Positions 19,108 through 32,020 of a DNA stretch of 64,000 nucleotides are shown piece after piece. The notes beneath the pieces were generated by a model. That model was not told the origin of the DNA. It saw only the letters and a list, made by a program, of their open reading frames with translations, and ran no database searches. Position 1 is the first letter of the stretch. Each line of letters opens with the position of its first letter. A program made the translations under genes and the position numbers. The DNA is from Longimycelium tulufanense (GTDB taxonomy: Bacteria > Actinomycetota > Actinomycetes > Mycobacteriales > Pseudonocardiaceae). The DNA is taken from positions 61,542-125,541 of the forward strand of contig NZ_BMMK01000018.1 of NCBI RefSeq assembly GCF_014645795.1, read 5' to 3'.

Positions 19108-20100
19108 TCACCGCCGACGTCGAAGCCCCAACACCAACGCCGTCGTGGTCGACACCGCCGCCGCCACCGAGCCCACCACCCGGGACAGCTCCACCGCACG
19201 GGTCACGTGCCCGGAGTCGGGGGATCGGCCCTCCCCGAGGATGGGCCGCTCCTCCACGGCGTGCCCGTAGGCGGTGCGCCCACCGAGCCGCACCTCCAGC
19301 GCGCCCGCGAACGCCGCCTCCACCTGGCCGGCGTTCGGGCTCGGATGCGCCGCGGCGTCCCGCCGCCACACCCGCCAGGCACCCGCCGCCGAACCACCCA
19401 CCACCGGCGCGGACACCGCGGTGAGCGCGGCCGCCAGCCGGGACGGCAGCAGGTTGGCCAGGTCATCCAACCGAGCCGCCGCCCATCCGAACCGCCGGTA
19501 CCGCGGCGATCGATGCCCCACCATCGCGTCCAGGGTGTTGATCGCCCGATAGCCCACCAAACCAGGCACACCCGCGACCGCACCCCAGAACAGCGGCGCC
19601 ACCACCGCATCGGAGGTGTTCTCCGCGACCGACTCCACGGTGGCCCGCGCAAGACCCCGGCCGTCCAGCGAGTTCGGCTCCCGCCCACACAGGTGCGGCA
19701 GCCGCAACCGCGCGTCGGCGACCCGCCCGGAGTCCAGCGCCTCGCCCATCGCCGCGCCCTCCTGCGCCAGCGAGGCCCCACCCAGCACGGACCACGTCGC
19801 GGCGGCCGTGGCCGCAGCCTGCAACACCGGGCTGCGCCGCGTCAGCCGCTCAACGGCGGTGCCGAGCAACACCGTCCCACCAGCCAACAACGCCGTGTAC
19901 ACAACCCCGGATGCCTTGTGGTCGCGGTAAAGCGCCTTCTCCACCGCGGTCGCCGCCCGTCCGAACGCCGCGACCGGGTGCCCCCGGCGCGGGTCCCCGA
20001 ACGCCGCGTCCGCGGCGACCCCGAGCAGCAGACCAACAGCGCGCCCCGCGCTCCCGGCCCCACCCCGCGAGCGACCCACCGGACCCCCTAGACGCTCCAC
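19108..20100 (-). CDS. cobD: adenosylcobinamide-phosphate synthase CobD/CbiB
   Basis: A 330-residue integral membrane enzyme that attaches aminopropanol (phosphate) to adenosylcobyric acid in cobalamin biosynthesis. It has the family signatures FGDPRRGHPVAAFGR near the start, ESVAENTSDAVVAPLFWGAV in the centre and YRAINTLDAMVGHRSPRYR following, with four or five hydrophobic segments. It is divergent from the jetA gene with about 100 bases between starts. The partner aminotransferase cobC is at 29778, separated from it by the Wadjet operon and two other genes. Confidence 0.9.
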   Translation of the reverse strand: MERLGGPVGRSRGGAGSAGRAVGLLLGVAADAAFGDPRRGHPVAAFGRAATAVEKALYRDHKASGVVYTALLAGGTVLLGTAVERLTRRSPVLQAAATAAATWSVLGGASLAQEGAAMGEALDSGRVADARLRLPHLCGREPNSLDGRGLARATVESVAENTSDAVVAPLFWGAVAGVPGLVGYRAINTLDAMVGHRSPRYRRFGWAAARLDDLANLLPSRLAAALTAVSAPVVGGSAAGAWRVWRRDAAAHPSPNAGQVEAAFAGALEVRLGGRTAYGHAVEERPILGEGRSPDSGHVTRAVELSRVVGSVAAAVSTTTALVLGLRRRR

Positions 20101-20200
20101 CGGCCACCCGGCCGGGTTCCCCTGAACGTGTTGCGGGTGGCGACGTTAGCGCCCGCCGCCTGCGCGTCCACGAGCGGGCGGCCGGTTAGGGTTGCCGCCC

Positions 20201-21748
20201 GTGAGGGAGGACCAGGGGGAGCTGACCGCGGCCGTCCCCGACGGCGAGCGCCGGTTGCAGCTGTACGCGTACCTGCAGGCACGTGAGCACCAGCGCACCT
20301 ACCTGGAGATCATGCGGCTGTTCGCCTCCACGCTGCTGGCCGACCTGTCCGCCGGCGAGGTGGCCGGCGCGCTGGCCGGCGCCGAGCGGGCCGGCCGCGT
20401 CGAGCCCGGCGAGTCGCGGATCGAGTCGGTGATTCCCCGGCTCCGCCAGCTCGTCGAGTGGGGGAACCTGGTGCACGGCCGCCGGGAGACGGTCGCCGCC
20501 AGCATCGCCGAGTTCCAGCACGGCAGCGCCCGTTACCAGGTCAGCAAGCTCGCGGTCCGGGTGCAGCGGGACGTCGACGAGCTGCTGCGGGTGCCCGAGG
20601 GCGCCCGCGAGGTGTCCCGCGAGCTGCTGCCCGCCATCGAGCGCGGCCTCCGCGAACTCACCAGGACCTTCCAGGTAGCCACCGGTGACGACCCGCGAGC
20701 CGCCCGACACGCGACCGAGTTGCTGTCCGAACAGGTCACCACCCTGTTCCTGCAGCACGCCGAACTGGCCGCCACCGTGCGGGACTTCTACGCCTACCTC
20801 GGGCACGTGCTCGCCCGGCACCACCTCGCGCCGGACGAGATCTCCGGCTTCCGGGACCTGCTCGTCGACTACATCCAGAAGGTCGTCGAGGACGTGCTGC
20901 GGCACACCCCGGCGATCGCCGACACCCTGGCCGGCCTCACCGGCCGCCGTGGCGAGCTGCTCACGCTGCTCGGCCCCGCCGAACGGTTGGGCGAGGACGT
21001 GGAGCGCTCCCGTGGCCGCACCGAGGACGACTGGCGGGAACTGACCGACTGGTTCGTGGACCGGCCCGGCCGGCCCAGCCAGGTCACCGCGCTGCGCGAG
21101 GCCACCGCCCGCGCCATCGGCTCGCTGCTGGCCAGCGTGAAGCGGGCGACCACCGGCGCTGGCCTGCTACCCGGCCGCCGCGCGGAGCTGCTGAAGCTCG
21201 CCAGGTGGTTCGACGAGGCCGGCCCGGACGGCGCGCACGCCCTCTACGCCGCCGCGTTCGGGCTGCACTCGGCGCGGCACCTGATGCCCGCCCCGGACCA
21301 CGACGCCGACGACGAGCACACTCCGTGGCGGGACGGCCCGGTCCTCGACGTGTCGGTGAGCGTGCGCAGTCGCGGCGACCGTGGCGCACGCGGCCGCACC
21401 TCGCGCATCGTCGACGACCCCATGACCGAGCAGGCCCTGCTCGCCGAGGCCCGCGAGGTTGACGCGCAACGCACCGCCGCCGTGCGGGAGCTGGCCTCTG
21501 CCGCCCCTCGCCTGGGCGAGGCGCGGCTGTCCTCGGCCGCGTTGAGCGTGCTGTGCGATCTGCTCACCCTCGCGATGGCGCAACGAGAGCGTGCCGACGA
21601 CACCGGCTCGGCCGCCGACCCGGTGCGCGGCCTGCGCCTCCGGTTGCGCCCCGAAGAAGGCCGCACGACCCGGATCAGCACCGCCGGCGGCGTGCTCACG
21701 TTGCACGACACCGCGATCGAGCTCGGGGCGGAGGGGAAGACCGAATGA
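20201..21748 (+). CDS. jetA: Wadjet protein JetA (TIGR02677/DUF2397 family)
   Basis: A 515-residue kleisin-like (MukF-type) subunit of the Wadjet SMC complex, which recognises and removes circular plasmids. The start (LYAYLQAREHQRTYLEIMRL), the helical central part (LLADLSAGEVAGALA, LRQLVEWGNLV) and the C-terminal end (LRLRPEEGRTTRISTAGGVL) are typical of TIGR02677. GTG 20201 is chosen because it follows the non-coding divergent region with cobD. The last codons overlap the start of jetB (ATGA), the first step of a compact operon A-B-C-D. Confidence 0.85.
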   Translation: MREDQGELTAAVPDGERRLQLYAYLQAREHQRTYLEIMRLFASTLLADLSAGEVAGALAGAERAGRVEPGESRIESVIPRLRQLVEWGNLVHGRRETVAASIAEFQHGSARYQVSKLAVRVQRDVDELLRVPEGAREVSRELLPAIERGLRELTRTFQVATGDDPRAARHATELLSEQVTTLFLQHAELAATVRDFYAYLGHVLARHHLAPDEISGFRDLLVDYIQKVVEDVLRHTPAIADTLAGLTGRRGELLTLLGPAERLGEDVERSRGRTEDDWRELTDWFVDRPGRPSQVTALREATARAIGSLLASVKRATTGAGLLPGRRAELLKLARWFDEAGPDGAHALYAAAFGLHSARHLMPAPDHDADDEHTPWRDGPVLDVSVSVRSRGDRGARGRTSRIVDDPMTEQALLAEAREVDAQRTAAVRELASAAPRLGEARLSSAALSVLCDLLTLAMAQRERADDTGSAADPVRGLRLRLRPEEGRTTRISTAGGVLTLHDTAIELGAEGKTE

Positions 21749-22941
21749 GTGCCCACCCCGCCCTGCGTGTCCTGGACCGGCTGTCGGAGATCGACGCCGC
21801 GAACGTGGTGCGCTGCGCCCGCGTCCTGCTGCGCCGCCCGCTGGTGCGCGCCGGCGGCCCCGACGGCGACCTGCTGCCGCTGATGTACCGGCACCGCGAG
21901 CAGCTCCAGGAACTTTTCGTGGTCACCCTCGGATACCGCCTCGTGGTGGAACGCCGGTTCGCCCGCCTCTACAAGCTCGGCCCGGGCGACGACCCGACCC
22001 GCGGCGAACCCACCCTCACCCCACGCGGCTACGCCTACCTGGCGCTCACCCTGGCCGCACTCACCGGCGTCGGCCGGCAGGTGCTGCTCTCCCGCCTCGT
22101 CGCGGACGTCCGTGCCGCCGCGGTCGAGGCCGGCGTCACCGTCATCGACGACCAGCAGGACCGGCGCGCCCTCACCGCCGCGCTGCGGCACCTGCTCGCC
22201 CTCGGCGTGATCAGCGAGACCGAGGGAACGGTCGGCCCGTGGAGCGGTGACGCCCCCGTCGAAGCACTGATCACCATCGACACCGACCTGCTCGGCCTGC
22301 TGCTCTCCGGCCCGCTGTCCGAGTCGGGCGACCCGGCGGAGCTGATCGAGCTGGCCGCCCGCCGCCAGCAACACCCGGTGCGGCGCCGGCTCGTCGAGGA
22401 CCCCGTGGTGCTCTACGCCGACCTCACCGGGGAACAGGCCGCGTGGTTGCGCAAGCACCACCGCCGGGAGTCGGTGTTGCTGGAACGGTGCTTCGGCCTG
22501 GTCACCGAGACCCGCCTGGAGGGCGTGGTCGCCACCGACCCGGAGGAGTACCTGACGGACCTGTCCCTCCCCGGCCCCGGTACGGTCGCCCGCATCGCCC
22601 TGCTCGCGCTGCGCGAGCTGCGGGAGCGCGACCCGCTGCCCGACGGCCGGCACGAGGTTCGGTTCGCCGAGGTGCGCGAGCAGGTGGCCGCGTTGGTCTC
22701 CGACTACCCGGCGGCCTGGTCCCGACAGGCCACCGAGGATCTGCACGCCCTCACCGAGGACGTCCTGGAGCTGTTGGTGCGCGTCGGCCTGGCCCGCCGC
22801 GACCCCGACACCGACGACCGGTGGCTGCTCAGCCCGGCGGTGCACCGCTGGTGGCCGGAGCCGGACGACACCCCGGGGCGGTCGTCGACCGAGTCGGCCG
22901 AACCCGAACCCCAGCCGGCGGGTTGGTCGCTGTTCGACTAG
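21745..22941 (+). CDS. jetB: Wadjet protein JetB (TIGR02678/DUF2398 family)
   Basis: A 398-residue MukE/KITE-like winged-helix subunit. Features of the family are visible: the N-terminal VLRARVLLRRPLVR-like stretch (VRCARVLLRRPLVRAGGPDG), YRLVVERRFARLYKL, LTPRGYAYLALTLAALTG and the C-terminal WLLSPAVHRWWP. It binds JetA and helps JetC engage DNA. Its ATG overlaps the stop of jetA and 84 bases separate it from jetC. No defect is visible. Confidence 0.85.
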   Translation: MSAHPALRVLDRLSEIDAANVVRCARVLLRRPLVRAGGPDGDLLPLMYRHREQLQELFVVTLGYRLVVERRFARLYKLGPGDDPTRGEPTLTPRGYAYLALTLAALTGVGRQVLLSRLVADVRAAAVEAGVTVIDDQQDRRALTAALRHLLALGVISETEGTVGPWSGDAPVEALITIDTDLLGLLLSGPLSESGDPAELIELAARRQQHPVRRRLVEDPVVLYADLTGEQAAWLRKHHRRESVLLERCFGLVTETRLEGVVATDPEEYLTDLSLPGPGTVARIALLALRELRERDPLPDGRHEVRFAEVREQVAALVSDYPAAWSRQATEDLHALTEDVLELLVRVGLARRDPDTDDRWLLSPAVHRWWPEPDDTPGRSSTESAEPEPQPAGWSLFD

Positions 22942-23025
22942 CCGAGCTGCTAGTCAGGACATGGCTCCCGGCCCGCCGGGCCGGCCGGGCGTGGGTGGAG
23001 CCACGAGCAAGGAACGGAGAGACAG

Positions 23026-26000
23026 TTGAGCCCAGACCGCTGGCGGCTGCACCGGGGTGGCATCGTCAACATCTGGCAGTACGCCGAACAGGTCTTCGAC
23101 TTCTCCGGCGGCCGCGGGATCTTCCAGGGCACCAACGGCTCGGGCAAGTCCCGGACGCTGGAGCTGCTGCTCCCGCTCTGCCTGGACGGCGACCTGCGGC
23201 AGCTCGGCTCCAAGGGCTTCGACACGGTCAGCATCCGCCGGCTGATGTTGGACGACTACGACGGCGGCCCGAACCGCATCGGCTACGGCTGGGTGGAGCT
23301 GCGGCGCACTGGCGCCGAAGGCACGCCCGAGTACCTGACCTGCGGTGTCGGGGTGAAGGCGTCGAAGACCTCGCAGCAGGTCACCGACTCCTGGCGGTTC
23401 ATCACCCCGACCCGCGTCGGCTACGGCCTCAAGCTCGCCGGCCCGGACCGTGTCCCGCTCGGCCCCGCCCAGCTGAAGGAGGCGATCGGCGCCGACTGCG
23501 TGCTCGACGACGCCCCGTTCCGCGCCAAGATCGCCGAGGCCGTCTACGGCATCCCCGCCGCCCGCTACACCGACCTGCTCCACCTGCAGCGCACGCTGCG
23601 CAACCCGGACGTCGGCCTGAAGGTCCTGGAGGGCCAGCTCGAGCAGATCCTCACCGACGCGCTGCCGCCGCTGGACGCCAGCCTGGTCGAGCAGCTGGCG
23701 ACCTCGTTCGAGGACCTGGAGTCGATCCGCACCAACATCGCCCGCCTCACCACGGCCGACACCGCGCTGAGCGCCTTCCTGTCCACCTACCAGGGCTACG
23801 CGCTGGCGCAGCTGCGCACGGCCGGCGACCGGGTGGCCGGTGCCCGGGAGAACCTGCGCACGCTGCGCGCCGAAGTGGCGAAGCTGGCCGACCGCCTCGA
23901 AATCACCCAGCGGCAACGCACCGAGGCCGACGCCGAGGTCACCACCATGGAGGAGACCGAGCGCCAACTGGAGACGCGGATCGACGCGCTGAAGGCGTTG
24001 CCCGCCTATCAGGGCCTGCGCAACCTCCAGGACCGCGAGCAGCTGGTCGCCCGCGCCCGGGCGGCCGCGGAGTCCGCGCTGGAAACCGCCAGCCGGCAAC
24101 GCGCCACCGAGGACCGTTCGGTGGACGCCGTGCTCACCGTGCTGCGGCGCCTCGACCAGGACGTGCGGGCCGCCACCGAGCTGTCGGCCCGTGGCCGGGA
24201 TCAGCTCGCCGCGGCCGGGCTCGACGGCGCCGGCTGCCCGGCGCCCCCGGTGCTGCCGCCGGCCGAGGCGGTCGTGGTCACCGACAGCGTGCGCGCCAAG
24301 CCGGACCCGGACGCCGAGCCGCTGCCGATCGAGCGTCGCTCGCTGCCACCGGTCGACGGCGAGGCCCTGCTCGCCGAGCTGCGCGCCGCCGCGGACAGCG
24401 CCGGGGAGCTGGTGTCGGGCACGCGGCGCCGGTCCGCCCTCACCGAGACGCTGTGCCACCGCGCCACCGACCTGGACCGGCAGCGGGACCGGGTCGACGA
24501 GCTGCACCGCACCGCGCGCGAGGCGCAGATCGCGGCCACCGACGCTGCGGGCCGGCGCAACGAGGCCGACCAGCGGCTCGCCGACGCCGCCGAGCTGTGG
24601 TTGGAGCAGTGCCGCCAGTGGACGGGCGAGACCTGCTCGCAGGGTCGAGCCATCGACGCGGCTGGGCCGCTGGCCGAGCTGGCGGACGCCGAGCGCCCGG
24701 CCGTCCCCGCCGTGACGGACCTGGTCGGCTCCCGCACTGCCGCCCGGCAGGCACGGGAGGCCGTGCGGCAGTGGGCTGCCCCGCACCTGCGGACCGCCGC
24801 CCGCAAGGTGCACGCCGCCGAGCAGGACGTCGCCTCCGCCCGTACCGCCATCAGCGAGCGTGAGCGGGAGCTGACGGCGCTGCGGGGCGGGGTGCAGACG
24901 GAGCCCGACCGACCCCCGTTCGCCACTGCCGGGCGGGACCCGGCGGCCGGCGCGGCCTTCTACCGGCTGGTCGACTTCGCCGACGGTGCCACCGACGAGC
25001 AGCGGGCCGGCCTGGAGGCCGCCCTCCAGGCCAGCGGCCTGCTCACCGCCTGGGTGACCGCCGACGGTCGCGTGGCCGACCCGGCACCGGCCGACCTGCT
25101 GGCCACCCCGGCCGGGGTGGCCGGTGGGGCGAGCCTGGCCGATGTGCTGGTCCCCGCACCCGAGCCGGGCTGCCCCGTGCCGGCGGACCTCGTGCGCCAG
25201 GTCCTGGCTGCCGTGGCGCTCCTCGACGACCCGGCCGGAGAGTCGGCGCCGGCCGGGCTGGCCGTCTCCACCAGCGGGCGGTGGCGGGCCGGCGTGCTCG
25301 CCGGGACGTGGCGCAAGGACGCCGCCGAGTACGTGGGCGCCGGTGCCCGCGAGGCCGCCCGCCAGCGCCGCATCGCCCTGCTGGAGGACGAGCTGGAGCG
25401 GCTGCGTGGCGAGCTGGCCCGCGCCCAGCAGGACCTGGAGGAGGCCAGGGCCGGCCACGGCGCCTGGCAGGGTCACCTCGACGCGTTCCCCGACGACGGC
25501 GACCTCATCGCGGCGCACGCGACACTGGCCACCGCCCGGGACGCGGCCGCCGAGGCCGAGCGGCGGTCCGCCCACCTGCGCGAGCAGCACCACGAAGCCG
25601 AGGAACGATGGCAGGCCGCCCGCGCCGAACTGCACCGCGACGCCACCGAAGCGGGGCTGACCGCCGAGACCGGCGAGCTGGAGCGTGCCCACCGCGCCGC
25701 CGAGCAGGCCAGGGCCACCGTCGAGGAGCTCCGGCAGACCCTCGACGAGCGGTGTGCGCGCACCGTCGGCGACCTCACCGACGCCGTGCACCACCACCAG
25801 GCCGCGTTGACCGACCGCACCGAGGCCGAGGCGGCAGCGGACACGGCATGCACCGAGTACGCCGACCAGGCCGCGGCGTTGTCCGAGCTGACCGGCGCGA
25901 TCGGCGGCGAGGCACAGCAGGTGGCCGACCAGCTCGCCGTGCTCGAGGAACAGCGGCGGGAACTGCGGCATGCCCTGCCCGGTGCCCGGGAACGCGTGGC

Positions 26001-27222
26001 CGCACTGCGGGAACAGGCCACGAGGGCCGAGACCCTGCTGGAGACCAAGCGGGCACAGCTCGGTGGTCGCGAGGAGGAGGTCGGACGGGTCTCCGCGGCC
26101 TTCCGGGACGCGTTGGCCACGCCCGGCCTGTGGGTGGCGGCGGTCGGCGTGCCCGAGGACGAGGAAACACCCGCCGGACCACCGACCGACGACCTCGACG
26201 CCACGCTCGCGGAACTGGAAGCGGCCCCGGAGCGCCGCGCGTTCTCCGAAGGCGCGGTCATCACCAAGCTGCAGGCCCTGCAGACCGCCCTGGCCGGCAC
26301 CCATGACATCACCGCCGAGACCCACGCCGGGGTGCTCACGGTGACGGTCACCGGCGAGGACGGGCCACGCCCGGTCGCCGAGGCCGCGCACCGGGTCGCC
26401 ACCAGGCTGGCCGAGCAACGCGGCTACCTCGGTGAGCGCTACCAGGACATCTTCGCGACCTACCTGATCCGCGATCTGGCCGAACGGCTGCGTGGCCAGA
26501 TCGCGGTGGCCGAGGACCTGTGCCGGCGGATGAACGACGTGCTGGAGCGGGCCCGCTCCAGCCAAGGCGTGCACGTCCAGCTGGAGTGGCGGCCCTCGGC
26601 GGCCCTGGACGAGGGCACCCGGCAGGCGCTGGACCTGGTGCGCATGCCGTTCGCCGAGCGCACCGCCGAACAGGACGACGCGCTGCGGCGGGTGTTCACC
26701 GAGCGGATCGAGGCCGAGCGCGACGCCCACTCCACCGGCTACGCCGAGATCCTGGCCCGGGCGCTGGACTACCGGTCCTGGTACTCGTTCACGGTCCGGG
26801 TACGCGACACCGGGCCGGACGGCAAGCCCCGGGCGCGGCGGCTGCGTCAGCTCTCCTCCGGCGAGACCCGCCTGGTCTCCTACGTGACCCTGTTCGCGGC
26901 GGCGGCGTCCTTCTACGACGCCGTGGGCGTGGCGCCAGCGGAGTCCGAGGAGGCGGCCAGCCGTGCCGGTGCGGCCGGCCCGCTCCGGCTGGTGTTGCTC
27001 GACGAGGCGTTCGAGCGGCTGGACGACCCGACGATCGCCCGGCTGCTCGGCCTACTGGTCGACCTGGACATGGACTGGATCATCACCTGGCCCAGCGGCT
27101 GGGGCGTCTCGCCGAAGATCCCGCGCATGCACATCTACGACGTGCTGCGGCCCAGGACCGGCGCCGGAATCGCCTGCACCCACACCACCTGGGACGGTGC
27201 CGCCCTGGAACGGGCGGACTGA
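23026..27222 (+). CDS. jetC: Wadjet SMC-like ATPase JetC (TIGR02680 family)
   Basis: A 1398-residue SMC/MukB-like motor that extrudes DNA loops in the Wadjet complex. The N-terminal ATPase half has Walker A at residues 35-42 (GTNGSGKS) after the family start WRLHRGGIVNIWQY. The middle (about 250-1130) is a long alanine/glutamate/arginine-rich coiled coil with a hinge-like section near residue 640-760. The C-terminal head has the ABC signature LSSGETRLVSYV at about residue 1275 and Walker B LVLLDEAFERLDD at about 1321. Start TTG 23026 follows GGAACGGAGAGA. The ATPase motifs are intact, so the motor should work. Confidence 0.9.
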   Translation: MSPDRWRLHRGGIVNIWQYAEQVFDFSGGRGIFQGTNGSGKSRTLELLLPLCLDGDLRQLGSKGFDTVSIRRLMLDDYDGGPNRIGYGWVELRRTGAEGTPEYLTCGVGVKASKTSQQVTDSWRFITPTRVGYGLKLAGPDRVPLGPAQLKEAIGADCVLDDAPFRAKIAEAVYGIPAARYTDLLHLQRTLRNPDVGLKVLEGQLEQILTDALPPLDASLVEQLATSFEDLESIRTNIARLTTADTALSAFLSTYQGYALAQLRTAGDRVAGARENLRTLRAEVAKLADRLEITQRQRTEADAEVTTMEETERQLETRIDALKALPAYQGLRNLQDREQLVARARAAAESALETASRQRATEDRSVDAVLTVLRRLDQDVRAATELSARGRDQLAAAGLDGAGCPAPPVLPPAEAVVVTDSVRAKPDPDAEPLPIERRSLPPVDGEALLAELRAAADSAGELVSGTRRRSALTETLCHRATDLDRQRDRVDELHRTAREAQIAATDAAGRRNEADQRLADAAELWLEQCRQWTGETCSQGRAIDAAGPLAELADAERPAVPAVTDLVGSRTAARQAREAVRQWAAPHLRTAARKVHAAEQDVASARTAISERERELTALRGGVQTEPDRPPFATAGRDPAAGAAFYRLVDFADGATDEQRAGLEAALQASGLLTAWVTADGRVADPAPADLLATPAGVAGGASLADVLVPAPEPGCPVPADLVRQVLAAVALLDDPAGESAPAGLAVSTSGRWRAGVLAGTWRKDAAEYVGAGAREAARQRRIALLEDELERLRGELARAQQDLEEARAGHGAWQGHLDAFPDDGDLIAAHATLATARDAAAEAERRSAHLREQHHEAEERWQAARAELHRDATEAGLTAETGELERAHRAAEQARATVEELRQTLDERCARTVGDLTDAVHHHQAALTDRTEAEAAADTACTEYADQAAALSELTGAIGGEAQQVADQLAVLEEQRRELRHALPGARERVAALREQATRAETLLETKRAQLGGREEEVGRVSAAFRDALATPGLWVAAVGVPEDEETPAGPPTDDLDATLAELEAAPERRAFSEGAVITKLQALQTALAGTHDITAETHAGVLTVTVTGEDGPRPVAEAAHRVATRLAEQRGYLGERYQDIFATYLIRDLAERLRGQIAVAEDLCRRMNDVLERARSSQGVHVQLEWRPSAALDEGTRQALDLVRMPFAERTAEQDDALRRVFTERIEAERDAHSTGYAEILARALDYRSWYSFTVRVRDTGPDGKPRARRLRQLSSGETRLVSYVTLFAAAASFYDAVGVAPAESEEAASRAGAAGPLRLVLLDEAFERLDDPTIARLLGLLVDLDMDWIITWPSGWGVSPKIPRMHIYDVLRPRTGAGIACTHTTWDGAALERAD

Positions 27223-27228
27223 GCCGCC

Positions 27229-27903
27229 GTGGCCAGCGGGACCGCTCCCGACCCCGACCGGCCGGAGTTGGCCGAGCTGTGGCGGCTGGCCCGACAGGCC
27301 GTCGAGAGTGAACGCTCGGCATTCCGCCTGGAGGTGCCCGACGCCGCGACCGCGGAGGCCCTTGGCGCCGTCCTGGGCCGCCCGCTGCGCCATCCGGGCC
27401 GGGTCTCGCTGTCGTTGCGGGTGCTCCGCGACCGGCTCGCCCGGTTCGACCTTGACCTGGACCGGGTCCTGCGGTCGGTGCCGGGCGGCGCGGTGGCCGG
27501 GGCGGCCGGCCAGGACGAGGGGCGGCGCTTCGTCGAGCAGGTGCTCTCCGCCGCGCTGGCGGGGGAGGGGTTCGTCGGGGTGCCGTGGGCGGCGGCCTGG
27601 ATCGACACCGTCGCCCGGGACGGCCGCGTCGTGCCGGCGCTGTTCCCCGCCCTGGCACGGCGGGCCGCCGCCATCCTGGCGGCTCTTCACCTCGAGCCCG
27701 GTTCCCCGCCCGGGCGCATGCTCGACCGCGCGGAGCTGGCCGCATCGGTGGCCGGCAGTGCCCACGCACTCGACGGTGACCAGCTCCTCGCCCGCCTGGT
27801 GCTGCAGGCAGCGGCGCTCGCGCACGGCTGCCCGTTCCCGCGATCGGATGCCGAGCGGGCGGCCCTGTGGCGGCGCTGTGGGGCGCGGGGGTCGACGCCC
27901 TGA
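27229..27903 (+). CDS. jetD: JetD, truncated: N-terminal domain only, nuclease domain missing
   Basis: JetD normally has an N-terminal domain (DUF3323) that binds the SMC core and a C-terminal Toprim-like nuclease domain (DUF2399) that cuts the plasmid; about 400 residues in total. Here only 224 residues remain. They match the N-terminal domain to its end (LARLVLQAAALAHGCPFPRS, then AALWRRCGARG) and then stop. In another frame the next expected residues (GVDALTSLV) can be read after a one-base gap in a G-run at 27887-27891, but the reading then diverges and stops by 27988. No Toprim motif follows before the lipase gene at 28050. The GTG start lies 6 bases after jetC. Confidence 0.75.
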   Translation: MASGTAPDPDRPELAELWRLARQAVESERSAFRLEVPDAATAEALGAVLGRPLRHPGRVSLSLRVLRDRLARFDLDLDRVLRSVPGGAVAGAAGQDEGRRFVEQVLSAALAGEGFVGVPWAAAWIDTVARDGRVVPALFPALARRAAAILAALHLEPGSPPGRMLDRAELAASVAGSAHALDGDQLLARLVLQAAALAHGCPFPRSDAERAALWRRCGARGSTP

Positions 27904-27978
27904 CGTCCCTCGTCGGGAGGTCGACAGGTCTGCCACGAACGGCGACCTGCGTGCCATCCCCGCGCACGCCCTGGTTCC

Positions 27979-28002
27979 ATAACCTACTTTGAAGTAGGTT
28001 AT
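27979..28002. promoter_or_regulatory. perfect 24-bp palindrome, probable regulator operator
   Basis: ATAACCTACTT and its exact complement around a TG centre, placed 47 bases before the lipase start and immediately after the jetD remnant. The AT-rich palindrome with a 2-base centre stands out from the surrounding GC-rich DNA, and its size fits a dimer of a TetR- or MarR-family repressor. There is no T-run, so it is not a terminator. No such regulator gene is adjacent. Confidence 0.65.
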
Positions 28003-28049
28003 GCCCGTCGCCGCAGGAACCCGGACAGAACCGCATTGAGGGAGGCCCG

Positions 28050-28907
28050 ATGCGCGTCGTGCCGCGACGGCTCTTCGGTCGGCTTACCGCCCTGCTTTCC
28101 GCCCTGTTGATCGCCGGACTGGTGGGCGCGGCGCCGGCGAGCGCCGACCCGGCGCCGACCAGCCTGCTGACCCCGCCGGGCGCGAACGACTGGTCGTGCA
28201 AGCCTAGCGCCGAGCACCCCTACCCGGTGGTGCTCCTGCACGCCACGTTCCTGAACAGCTCGAGCTGGTCCGCCCTGGCTCCCACGCTCGCGCAGGAGGG
28301 CTACTGCGTCTACGCGCTCAACTACGGGGGCTCGTTCGTCGGCGGGGACCTCATCGGAGGACTGGGCCCGATGGCGAAGTCCGCCGAGCAGATCTCCGCA
28401 TTCGTCGACCGGGTTCGGACGGCGACCAGCAGCGAGAAGGTCGACATCGTCGGACACTCCCAGGGCGGCATGCTGCCCCGGTACTACATGAAGTTCCTGG
28501 GCGGGGCGGACAAGGTGCACTCGCTGGTCGGGGTGGCCCCGGACAACCACGGCACCACCTGGGGCGCGATCGGCTGGCTGATCAGGTTCTTCCCACCGGC
28601 GACGAACCTCGTGTGCACGTCGTGCACCGAGCAGCTCCGCGACTCCGACTTCATCAAGAAGCTCAACGAGGGCGGGGAAACTCTGCCGGGGGTGCACTAC
28701 ACCGTCATCGCGACCAAGTACGACGAGTTCGCCACCCCGTACACCACGGCCTTCCTGGACGGCCCGGACGTCAAGAACATCACCATCCAGGACGTGTGCC
28801 CGAACAACCGGGTGGAGCACCTGGGACTACCGGCCGACCCGGACGCCGTCCACCTGGTGCTCAACGCACTCGACCCGGAGCACGCAACCCCCGTGCGCTG
28901 CTCCTGA
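28050..28907 (+). CDS. secreted triacylglycerol lipase / esterase (alpha/beta hydrolase)
   Basis: A 285-residue exported lipase. Residues 1-33 form a signal peptide (RLTALLSALLIAGLVGAAPA, cut near ASADP). The mature enzyme has the oxyanion-side VVLLHATFLNSSSWSALAP, the nucleophile in IVGHSQGGMLPRYYMKF, and late Asp and His residues (KYDEFATPY; NNRVEHLGLPADP), as in the actinobacterial lipase/esterase family related to Streptomyces secreted lipases. Four or more cysteines (CKPS, CTSC, DVC, RCS) suggest disulfides. Preceded by the palindromic operator and followed by a strong hairpin. Confidence 0.85.
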   Translation: MRVVPRRLFGRLTALLSALLIAGLVGAAPASADPAPTSLLTPPGANDWSCKPSAEHPYPVVLLHATFLNSSSWSALAPTLAQEGYCVYALNYGGSFVGGDLIGGLGPMAKSAEQISAFVDRVRTATSSEKVDIVGHSQGGMLPRYYMKFLGGADKVHSLVGVAPDNHGTTWGAIGWLIRFFPPATNLVCTSCTEQLRDSDFIKKLNEGGETLPGVHYTVIATKYDEFATPYTTAFLDGPDVKNITIQDVCPNNRVEHLGLPADPDAVHLVLNALDPEHATPVRCS

Positions 28908-28946
28908 CGACCTCACCACTACTGACATGACCACTGCTGACATGCC

Positions 28947-28987
28947 TGCCGGCTGGGCGGGTCCGGGCCGGACCCGCCCAGCCGGCA
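28947..28987. terminator. 19-bp hairpin between convergent genes
   Basis: A perfect 19-bp inverted repeat (arms 28947-28965 and 28969-28987, GC-rich, 3-base loop). It separates the lipase from the lipoprotein gene on the opposite strand and can terminate both. Confidence 0.85.
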
Positions 28988-29075
28988 CTCTTCCCCTTCC
29001 GAAACGGGCGAGCCGTTGTCCGTGACAGTGGATGTGGTCTCCGCGCCCGTGACGTCGAGGGCACGCCCGATCGCG

Positions 29076-29522
29076 CTAGCCCTGCCGGCAGTCCGCCAGC
29101 TTCTTGCGTGCCTCGTCGACGGCCTTGCCGGCCTCGGTGGCCTTGGCGTTGGCGTTGTCGAGGTCCTCCTTGGCCTGCGTGCGGCTGGCGATGGCCTGCG
29201 TGGCGTCGGCCAGCAACCGGGCGACCTCGGCGCTCTCCGCCGCCGAATGACCACTGTTGGCGGCGGCATCGTCGGCCGTCTTGTTGGCCGCGTCGGCGGC
29301 CTTCCCGGCGTCGGCCAACCTGCCCTCGGCCGCCTTGACCACGGTCTCGGCCGCGCTCCTGGTCCGTTCCGCGGCTGTGACCGCCTTCTCCTGTTCGGTG
29401 CATGACGCGGCGCGGGAGCCGGAGTCGGAACCGTCGCAGGCGGCGACGAACGTGGCGGTCACGAGAGCGATCGCGGTCAATGCCGCCCTCATCGTCATGC
29501 GTGCCACTCTGTTGGTCCTCAT
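29076..29522 (-). CDS. alanine-rich coiled-coil lipoprotein
   Basis: A 148-residue lipoprotein. The signal sequence ends in the lipobox TATFVAAC (lipid cysteine at about residue 29). The mature protein is almost entirely a long alanine-rich helix (VVKAAEGRLADAGKAADAAN, ARLLADATQAIASRTQAKED) with cysteines near each end (SCTEQEK and KLADCRQG), so it may form a helical hairpin closed by a disulfide on the outer face of the membrane. The start is ATG 29522; the reverse frame runs far upstream as the antisense of cobC and is not used. No specific function is known. Confidence 0.65.
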   Translation of the reverse strand: MRTNRVARMTMRAALTAIALVTATFVAACDGSDSGSRAASCTEQEKAVTAAERTRSAAETVVKAAEGRLADAGKAADAANKTADDAAANSGHSAAESAEVARLLADATQAIASRTQAKEDLDNANAKATEAGKAVDEARKKLADCRQG

Positions 29523-29777
29523 GGTGATTGCCGTCCCCCTTGCCCAGGGCGTTCCGGTCGCGCCTCGACGAATCCGTCCACACAGGACACAGCCGCTGCG
29601 GCGGCCACACCCGTCTCGCTTGATCGGCGTGCCAAGGGCAGAGTTACCGAAATATGGGATGAGCCACAGAAGGGCGGATAGCGGGCCCGGTCGGACACGC
29701 GCCGGGGCGAGGTGTCCCTGCGACTCCCGCCGGGTCCGGCGGCGCCGCGATTCCCGCCGGGACCTAGACTCGGCGCG

Positions 29778-30854
29778 ATGACCAGCGGGGATCACCAGGA
29801 CGACGACGGGCGGCGGTTGCTCCGCCACCACGGCGACGTGGACACCGCACCCGGGCTGGTCGACTTCGCGGTCAACGTGCGGCGGGACCGCCCACCCACC
29901 TGGCTCCGCGACCGGCTCGCCGCCGCCCTCGACCGGCTCGGCTCCTACCCAGGTGCGGCCGACGACCTCGCAGCCCGCGCCGCAGTGGCGCAGCGACACG
30001 ATCGGCACCCCGACGAGGTGCTGGTGCTCAACGGTGGCGCCGAGGGCTTCGCCCTGCTGCCCACGCTGCAACCCCGGCACGCCGCCCTCATCCATCCGTC
30101 CTTCACCGAGCCGGACGTGGTGCTCACCGACGCGGGCGTGCCCCTCACCCGCGTGCTTCTCGATCCCGCCGAGGACTACGCGCTCCGCCCGGAGCTGGTC
30201 CCCGACGACGCCGACCTGGTGGTACTGGGCAACCCCACCAACCCCACCTCGGTCCTCCACCCGGCGCAGGCGGTGTGCCGGCTGGCTCGCCGGGGTCGCG
30301 TTCTCGTCGTCGACGAGGCGTTCGCCGACGCGGTCCCGGGCGAACCCGCATCGCTCGCGGGCGACCGGACCACTCCCGGGCTTCTCGTCCTGCGCAGCCT
30401 CACCAAGACCTGGGCGCTGCCCGGCCTCCGCGCCGGCTACGCACTCGCGGCACCTGAGCTGCTCAACCGCCTCGCCGCTGGCCGGCCGCACTGGCCGGTG
30501 GGCACCCTGGTGTTGGAGGCGGTGCGAGCCTGCTGCGAACCGCACGCACTCGCCGAAGCAGAGACCGCCGCCCGACAAACGGCACGGCACCGCGCCGACC
30601 TGGCCGCCGCGCTCGCCGCTCTGCCGGGCGTCCAGGTGCGGCAACCGGCCGCCGCCCCCTTCCTTCTCCTGCGGGTGCCGGACGGACCCCGGGTGCGGGC
30701 CGGGCTCCGCGCCCGGGGCATCGCGGTGCGCCGCGCCGACACCTTCCCCGGCCTGGATCCCGACCACACCCGCGTCGCGGTGCGGACCCCCGAGCAGAAC
30801 GCCCTGCTGGTCGCCGCACTGCGCGCCGAACTGACCATGGAGGTTTCCGCTTGA
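29778..30854 (+). CDS. cobC: cobalamin-pathway PLP aminotransferase CobC (Rv2231c-like)
   Basis: A 358-residue fold-type I PLP enzyme of the histidinol-phosphate aminotransferase / threonine-phosphate decarboxylase group, likely making the aminopropanol phosphate used by CobD. It has the substrate-side VDFAVNVRRDRPP, YPGAADDLAARAAVA, the nucleotide-binding loop LNGGAEGFALL, VVLGNPTNPTSV, the Asp-containing VLVVDEAF and the PLP lysine in LRSLTKTWALPGLRAGY. Its stop overlaps the TTG start of the next gene. The gene order that follows matches Rv2231c-Rv2228c of mycobacteria. Confidence 0.85.
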   Translation: MTSGDHQDDDGRRLLRHHGDVDTAPGLVDFAVNVRRDRPPTWLRDRLAAALDRLGSYPGAADDLAARAAVAQRHDRHPDEVLVLNGGAEGFALLPTLQPRHAALIHPSFTEPDVVLTDAGVPLTRVLLDPAEDYALRPELVPDDADLVVLGNPTNPTSVLHPAQAVCRLARRGRVLVVDEAFADAVPGEPASLAGDRTTPGLLVLRSLTKTWALPGLRAGYALAAPELLNRLAAGRPHWPVGTLVLEAVRACCEPHALAEAETAARQTARHRADLAAALAALPGVQVRQPAAAPFLLLRVPDGPRVRAGLRARGIAVRRADTFPGLDPDHTRVAVRTPEQNALLVAALRAELTMEVSA

Positions 30855-32020
30855 GCCCGACCGTCGCCGACGTCGTCGCGGTCCTGGAGGCCGCCTACCC
30901 GCCCGCGCTCGCCGAGCCGTGGGATGCGGTCGGCCTCGTCTGCGGCGACCCCGACGAGCCGGTGCGGCGGGTGCTCGTCTGCGTCGACCCGGTCGAGGTC
31001 GCCATCGACGAGGCGATCGAACGAGAGGCACAGCTCCTCGTCGCCCACCACCCGCTGATGTTGCGCGGCGTCAACGCCGTTCCCGCCAACAGCGCCAAAG
31101 GACGGGCGGTGCACCGCCTGATCCGTTCCGGGGCCGCCTTGTTCTGCGCGCACACCAACGCCGACTCGGCCGACCCGGGAGTCTCCGACGCCTTCGCCGA
31201 GGCACTCGGGCTCACCATCACCGGACCCTTGGATCCCAAGCCCGCCGAGCCGAAGGACGCGCTGAGCGTCACGGTGCCGGTGGGTGATGTCCAACGTCTG
31301 CTCGACGCGCTCGCCGAGGCAGGCGCCGGACGCATGGGCCGGTACGCCGACGCCGCGTGGTTCACCGACGGCACCGGCCAGTACCGGCCGCTCGACGGCG
31401 CGACGCCCACCCTCGGCACCGTCGGTGAGCTGCACCGGGAGCCGGAGACCCGGATCGAGACCGCATTCCCGCGGCATCGCCGACCCGCCGTGCTCGCCGC
31501 GCTGCACGCCACCCATCCGTACGAGTCCCCGGCCTACGACTTGCACGAGTTGGTCGCCGAGCCGTCGACCCGCGGCCTCGGCCGGATCGGGGAACTACCC
31601 GAAGCCGAGCCACTCGGGGACTTCGCCCAGCGTGTCGCCGACGCCCTGCCCACCACGGCGTGGGGTGTGCGCGCGGCCGGTGATCCGGACCGCCCGGTGC
31701 GCACGGTCGCGGTGTGCGGCGGCGCCGGCGACTCGTACCTGGACCGCGCCACCCGTGCCGGAGTGGACGCCTATGTCACCGCCGACCTGCGGCACCACCC
31801 GGCCGGCGAGCACCTGGCCCGCGGTGACGTGCCCGGCGTGACGGTGCCGGCCCTGGTCGACGTGGCGCACTGGGCCAGCGAGTGGCCCTGGTGCCACCAG
31901 GCGGCCGACGTCATCCGCACCGGTCTCGGCGGTACGGTCGAGGTTCTCGTCTCCACCCGCCGCACCGACCCGTGGACGGTCGGGGCGACACCCAGCCCGA
32001 GCCGGAGGAACCCCGCGTGA
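30851..32020 (+). CDS. Nif3-like dinuclear metal-centre protein
   Basis: A 389-residue member of the Nif3/YbgI family (often named GTP cyclohydrolase 1 type 2). It has the metal-site motifs LAEPWDAVGLVCGD near the start, LLVAHHPLMLRGV (first histidines), LFCAHTNADSAD, and the late GDSYLDRAT ... VTADLRHH ... DVAHWASEW. Between the two halves (about residues 130-240) is the inserted dimerisation domain common in this family. It starts at TTG 30851, overlapping cobC. The biological substrate is uncertain for the whole family. Confidence 0.85.
   Translation: MSPTVADVVAVLEAAYPPALAEPWDAVGLVCGDPDEPVRRVLVCVDPVEVAIDEAIEREAQLLVAHHPLMLRGVNAVPANSAKGRAVHRLIRSGAALFCAHTNADSADPGVSDAFAEALGLTITGPLDPKPAEPKDALSVTVPVGDVQRLLDALAEAGAGRMGRYADAAWFTDGTGQYRPLDGATPTLGTVGELHREPETRIETAFPRHRRPAVLAALHATHPYESPAYDLHELVAEPSTRGLGRIGELPEAEPLGDFAQRVADALPTTAWGVRAAGDPDRPVRTVAVCGGAGDSYLDRATRAGVDAYVTADLRHHPAGEHLARGDVPGVTVPALVDVAHWASEWPWCHQAADVIRTGLGGTVEVLVSTRRTDPWTVGATPSPSRRNPA

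Follow-up and report, generated by a model that had tools for sequence, protein, structure and literature searches.

A Wadjet-II-derived SMC operon beside cobD in Pseudonocardiaceae that has likely shed its nuclease stepwise

What does a Wadjet operon do once its plasmid-cutting subunit has lost the nuclease domain? The question is raised by a stretch of 64,000 nucleotides from Longimycelium tulufanense (contig NZ_BMMK01000018.1, positions 61,542 to 125,541; hereafter the window), in which jetA, jetB and jetC, encoding a predicted structural maintenance of chromosomes (SMC) complex, are followed by a short JetD that ends after its N-terminal domain, DUF3323. An earlier note, made from this sequence alone, had offered three options: a silenced system, a complex that acts on plasmids without cleavage, or a nuclease supplied in trans. 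Now that they can be ranked, the non-cutting complex fits best, silencing is disfavoured, and a trans nuclease is unavailable in the organism's own genome. We lean towards the reading that the intact jetABC genes beside cobD, with their DUF3323-only JetD, encode a condensin-like SMC complex that has no nuclease, extrudes loops and does not act as a plasmid cutter. The complex is likely Wadjet-II-derived and inherited at one locus, with its nuclease shed stepwise, and by analogy it would be a non-cutting loop extruder resembling MksBEF. At the cobD-jetABC locus the cutter is dispensable and the motor is not. The genes concerned are listed here in window coordinates:

19108..20100, minus strand: CobD/CbiB gene (PF03186, E 1.2e-92), divergently oriented next to jetA; it marks the conserved locus
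20192..21748, plus strand: JetA, DUF2397/TIGR02677, predicted kleisin, 518 residues, TTG start (Pfam DUF2397, E 3.2e-124)
21745..22941, plus strand: JetB, DUF2398/TIGR02678, predicted KITE-type subunit (Pfam DUF2398, E 7.6e-93, 311.9 bits)
23026..27222, plus strand: JetC, TIGR02680, SMC-like ATPase, 1398 residues, Walker A GTNGSGKS, signature LSSGE, Walker B LVLLDEAFERLD
27229..27903, plus strand: short JetD, 224 residues, DUF3323 only, starting 6 bases past the JetC stop
27904..30222, no strand assigned: stretch expected to hold the DUF2399/Toprim half, no match in six frames
28050-28907: secreted-type lipase gene, starting 147 bases after the JetD stop, with no sign of operon membership

The four genes stand in the order JetA, JetB, JetC, JetD, and the first three are full length against their models with ATPase motifs intact, just as the earlier note had described them. 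JetA scores 415.8 bits against DUF2397, 657 bits against PADLOC JetA2 and 171.1 bits against TIGR02677 (cut-off 165.85). For JetB, the open reading frame (ORF) scanned was a longer one with a listed start at 21553, and its DUF2398 match begins at residue 89; translation most likely starts at the ATG at 21745, which overlaps the stop codon of JetA; this corrects the position listed earlier. JetC reaches 740.7 bits against TIGR02680 (cut-off 462.85) over model positions 1-1353 of 1356, and its Walker B motif, read from the translation, is LRLVLLDEAFERLD. Type II Wadjet systems (JetABCD II: DUF2397, DUF2398, TIGR02680, DUF3323-DUF2399) share the JetA to JetC families, the gene order and the N-terminal JetD half with the window. 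JetA with DUF2397, JetB with DUF2398 and JetC of TIGR02680 with ATPase motifs are all present, but the JetD of a type II system, which joins DUF3323 to a DUF2399/Toprim nuclease domain, is not. Because JetD has DUF3323 without Toprim, we class the locus as Wadjet-II-derived and not as a complete Wadjet II. It differs from type II also in being fixed beside cobD and in having relatives whose JetC is under selection without a JetD.

The short JetD aligns to positions 4-192 of 382 in TIGR02679 (45.6 bits; whole-protein cut-off 196) and to positions 14-228 of 423 in PADLOC JetD2. Its Pfam match is to DUF3323 alone (E 5.7e-24, 85.6 bits, cut-off 26.6), with no DUF2399, and its AlphaFold2 model is confident, with a mean predicted local distance difference test score (pLDDT) of 89 and a predicted template modelling score (pTM) of 0.63. 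The reported absence of the Toprim-like half held up: a Toprim profile built from relatives matched nowhere in the 3 kb after JetC, searched in all six frames with X written for stops. The same search recovers the Toprim domain at nine sister loci, eight of them profile contributors. A hidden frame or sequencing error concealing the Toprim half was rejected on this lack of signal.

The window is not alone in this truncation. When 5.8 billion proteins were searched with the short JetD, seven relatives came back, the window's own protein among them. Three are similarly short, from Streptoalloteichus tenebrarius (223 residues), S. hindustanus (235) and a Pseudonocardiaceae metagenome genome (251); the remainder are one of 169 residues and two of 355 that carry DUF2399. 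The four short JetDs (223-251 residues) end 3 to 35 residues from the LWxxxG motif that closes DUF3323. In a tree of the N-terminal region, the proteins of the window (a long branch), Streptoalloteichus and the metagenome genome (P0004) form one clade (100/96), and the JetC tree groups the window with Streptoalloteichus (99/100). A tblastn search of a plasmid collection with the short JetD at E 1e-5 gave no match.

A second short-JetD lineage occurs in genus g42 (L074, L075, L076), where proteins of 185-189 residues lie about 0.5 kb after JetC and end near the same domain boundary. They score 106-115 bits against the JetD profile, and the two tested against Pfam match DUF3323 weakly or not at all. 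Because these proteins are sister to an altered JetD of genus g43 (99/91), their truncation is separate from that of the window. Two JetDs were kept out of the JetD tree: that of L153, which is split, and that of L116, which is inverted.

The earlier note had not seen that many genera have inherited the locus next to cobD, with JetD decaying stepwise and, in one lineage, a TIR domain in Toprim's place. Among 84,980 species genomes, the JetC proteins closest to the window's define 30 named loci, at 20 of which jetA adjoins the homologue of the window's cobD. Leaving out L054, where the contig ends inside JetC, JetD was full length at 8 of 29 judged loci (L042, L043, L045 and L059 in Actinokineospora; L051, L056, L057 and L060 in outgroups), 338 residues long at one (L055, Lentzea), short at two and missing at 18. 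Across the family, a JetA orthologue, counted as one strong match (E <=1e-120) per genome, was found in 153 of 390 genomes and 26 of 46 genera. In the larger positive genera no genome lacked it, as judged from genome numbering (g8, 25; g26, 24; g35, 22; g4, 16; g7, 10; g23, 8). We fetched 107 of the 152 other JetA-bearing loci; of the 45 left out, two have an operon that runs into a contig end (G044, G071), and the other 43 are members of genera g7, g26, g35, g36 and g37. Because these 43 genomes belong to genera known to have JetD matches, the share of JetD-less loci reported below is inflated. In the fetched set, cobD lies upstream of jetABC at 102 of 107 loci (median gap 124 bases), the five exceptions all being in genus g6, and median identity to the window is 73% for JetA and 74% for CobD. 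The JetC frame is unbroken, with Walker A and LSSGE, at 104 of the 107 (two with the variant GANGxGKS). At L141 JetC is cut by a contig end, and this locus was dropped from the count of JetD states; the 108-row JetC tree left out L069, L141 and L153.

At the 106 judged loci, JetD is absent from 60, has altered Toprim residues at 22, is apparently intact at 16, consists of DUF3323 only at five (two in g39, three in g42) and joins DUF3323 to TIR at three. Automatic classing had given 61 none, 21 pseudo, 16 full, 8 short and 1 not judged; the sequences were then read, which moved L116 to the altered class and split the eight short ones into five DUF3323-only and three DUF3323-TIR. A JetD was scored as absent if the profile had no match on either strand within the 2.3-3.9 kb of fetched sequence beyond JetC, and as altered if one or more of the three acidic Toprim positions in the alignment (Glu of ENP, both Asp of HxDFD) carry another residue; the altered class includes L153, though its JetD splits over two frames. 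We take the three positions to be metal ligands, in line with E236 and D279 of MksG. In an alignment of 114 JetDs (101 search-derived proteins and 13 references), 48 have Arg in place of the Glu together with Thr in place of the second Asp, 37 have E/D/D, and the others are mixed or without the region. The Arg/Thr set is the Lentzea/Saccharothrix group, and Actinokineospora is mixed, with intact JetD at 3 of 16 loci and altered JetD at 13.

Two unusual arrangements of JetD were seen. At L116, JetD is inverted relative to jetABC and its Toprim Glu is replaced (VCTSP). Eight Saccharothrix-like genomes of genus g8 carry orphan Lentzea-type JetDs with altered Toprim residues (L171-L178, around 5.6-7.6 kb) far from jetABC; no jetA or jetC was found within the 12-13.5 kb fetched around them, and they are 88-99.7% identical to P0070.

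Whether the motor is still in use was judged from the ratio of nonsynonymous to synonymous substitution rates (dN/dS), computed by the Nei-Gojobori method in 22 pairs picked by hand as near relatives. Where JetD is missing, jetABC is under purifying selection in all 11 pairs (dN/dS 0.03-0.35), with medians of 0.069 for JetA, 0.081 for JetB and 0.111 for JetC, next to 0.079 for cobD (10 pairs). In the four pairs with an intact JetD, the values are 0.151, 0.241 and 0.199 for JetA, JetB and JetC. Short JetD gave 0.299, 0.381 and 0.362 (three pairs; z 4.9, 4.2 and 5.6), the window's JetD against Streptoalloteichus gave 0.461 and 0.544 (z 4.9 and 3.9), and intact JetD gave 0.341, 0.176 and 0.319. 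On these values, jetABC shows no decay and selection still acts on short JetD, even if the copy in the window changes rapidly.

Since a role that depends on the cutter would not stay conserved once the cutter is gone, JetABC would be expected to serve chromosome or plasmid organisation, probably by loop extrusion on DNA of the kind carried out by type I Wadjet and MukBEF/MksBEF. The DUF3323 domain, where it remains under selection, may for that reason still dock on JetABC as a structural or regulatory subunit. MksBEF offers a parallel. Its SMC lineage is type I-like, whereas the family of the window represents a different SMC lineage, keeps DUF3323 in some lineages and has surviving intermediates. 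Both would have arrived at the same outcome, with the motor kept and the nuclease gone: the family of the window retains SMC, kleisin and KITE genes without a nuclease under selection, which by functional analogy would make it MksBEF-like. MksBEF has been proposed in print as a nuclease-free loop extruder (PMC10586767). Like the window, Corynebacterium glutamicum MksBEFG, a type I Wadjet, is a four-gene SMC operon, but there MksG is intact, while the window has no Toprim domain; PMC10123090 describes the MksG nuclease as dependent on its Toprim metal ligands E236 and D279.

At three Saccharothrix-like loci of genus g8, all in the cobD-jetABC setting, DUF3323 runs on into a TIR domain. The genes lie in the orientation of jetA:

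L087, 11019-12131: DUF3323-TIR gene
L089, 11181-12293: DUF3323-TIR gene
L096, starting 62 bases after JetC: DUF3323-TIR gene

In L087 and L089 the gene lies about 1.8 kb after JetC, with an oxidoreductase-like ORF between. Pfam finds DUF3323 in the two proteins tested, plus TIR_2 at E 4.6e-23 and 1.3e-23. The TIR domain aligns to AbTIR (8g83), a nicotinamide adenine dinucleotide (NAD+) hydrolase, at E 1.1e-31, with WTKQE opposite WTNYE. By sequence, these relatives, unlike the window, thus have the WxxxE active-site region of a TIR NAD+ hydrolase, whose Glu is presumably catalytic. The architecture occurs in eight protein clusters; the tree that would show whether their DUF3323 descends from the JetD of the same locus carries a long-branch warning. 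Because DUF3323 is fused to TIR in three relatives, these proteins suggest that DUF3323 may be a docking module and Toprim an exchangeable effector. Lamassu, with its SMC-like sensor and variable effectors (LmuA, with exchangeable effectors including TIR; PMC10586767), shows for another family what DUF3323-TIR would suggest for Wadjet, although LmuB and LmuC are other proteins than JetABC. No effector exchange for Wadjet is described in the accessible parts of the literature examined, and TIR appears in those of PMC10586767 and PMC10123090 for Lamassu or within a reference title. A literature search largely confined to open-access journal articles returned nothing on DUF3323, nothing joining Wadjet with Pseudonocardiaceae, and only an off-topic match for TIGR02680, TIGR02679, DUF2399 and DUF2397.

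A bolder form of the reading, to which we give tentative credence at best, makes the cobD-linked jetABC a loop extruder with modular output, in which DUF3323 would be a docking adaptor that carries Toprim, an inactive Toprim or a TIR NADase, or else carries nothing, and the 'nothing' lineages, the window among them, would have become a second housekeeping condensin, with all intermediates caught. Section 7 of PMC10586767 treats as unresolved how SMC complexes of defence and those that organise chromosomes evolve into one another. Here one syntenic locus shows the proposed stages (intact nuclease, altered active site, truncated, none, TIR form) side by side in living genera, and the question therefore becomes testable in non-pathogenic actinomycetes, by asking whether JetABC organises the chromosome without JetD and whether DUF3323 is able to bear different effectors.

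Several points weigh against a nuclease-free extruder. Purifying selection tells us that jetABC has some use, but does not say that this use is loop extrusion. A PDB fold search with the short JetD model gave 30 matches at E <=10 and none at E <=0.001, and so points to no docking site. The window's JetD is only 52-53% identical to that of Streptoalloteichus, where JetC is 77-78% identical, and its fast evolution also fits slow decay. JetC is broken at 2 of the 107 fetched loci (L069 and L153). Finally, in 10 of the 16 named genomes with a short or absent JetD at jetABC, DUF2399 lies beside a second JetC, in a second Wadjet II operon that could lend its nuclease in trans.

Among the other explanations, the one that survives best, although we consider it unlikely, is that the DUF3323 protein serves as an adaptor, bound to JetABC and bringing in a separate putative effector, so that defence continues by another output. 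The fusion of DUF3323 to an NAD+-hydrolase-related TIR, the selection still acting on short JetDs and the altered-Toprim JetDs found apart from jetABC in the eight g8 genomes would all suit such an adaptor. Yet the lipase gene is no evident operon member, and DUF3323 itself is gone at 60 loci where jetABC persists. Nor was a shared replacement gene found after JetC: the most widespread downstream ORF occurs in 3 of 14 genera and at 9 of the 60 JetD-less loci, which leaves no recurring candidate.

That the locus is a decaying or silenced defence system, with the nuclease lost and the other genes on their way out, is more doubtful still. The stepwise loss of JetD, the fast evolution of the window's copy and the two broken JetC frames are what it would predict, but purifying selection on jetABC in JetD-less lineages equals that on cobD, JetC is sound at nearly all fetched loci, and the truncation is common to three lineages of short JetD, Streptoalloteichus included. 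The idea of a merely silenced system is hard to keep on these grounds.

That a second Wadjet II operon of the same cell supplies the nuclease in trans appears very improbable, in spite of the ten relatives with such an operon. Among 19 named genomes searched for DUF2399, 14 had a match; of the 16 with a short or absent JetD, five had none and one had a fragment. In a hand count, 18 of the 60 JetD-less genomes had no JetD2 match anywhere at E 1e-3. The own genome (6.83 Mb in 114 contigs, completeness 100) has one JetC and one canonical SMC, its sole JetD2 match is the short JetD gene, and it holds no free-standing DUF2399 above cut-off. Two sub-threshold matches (best E 0.26) are at chance level, the same search giving such scores in 6 of 14 control genomes. 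For this genome, the earlier note's trans nuclease, as supplied by another Wadjet, can be right only if the 114-contig assembly has missed an operon.

Loss of the Toprim half to a frameshift or missing stretch in the assembly has a negligible chance of being right: the genome is in 114 contigs and, by eye, the +1 frame past the JetD stop reads GVDALTSLV, recalling the linker start of full JetDs, but no frame in the 3 kb carries a Toprim signal, the next gene begins 147 bases on, and JetD also stops at this boundary between domains in the independent assemblies of two Streptoalloteichus species and the metagenome genome.

Two further features lie around the end of the operon. Between jetD and the lipase gene, a perfect 12-base inverted repeat (CATAACCTACTT-TG-AAGTAGGTTATG, 27978-28003) is perhaps an operator. 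Downstream of the jet operon, at 29712-32020, lie aminotransferase-like and Nif3-like genes (named by eye); in many named relatives such genes stand upstream of a SURF1 homologue, which points to a local rearrangement in the window.

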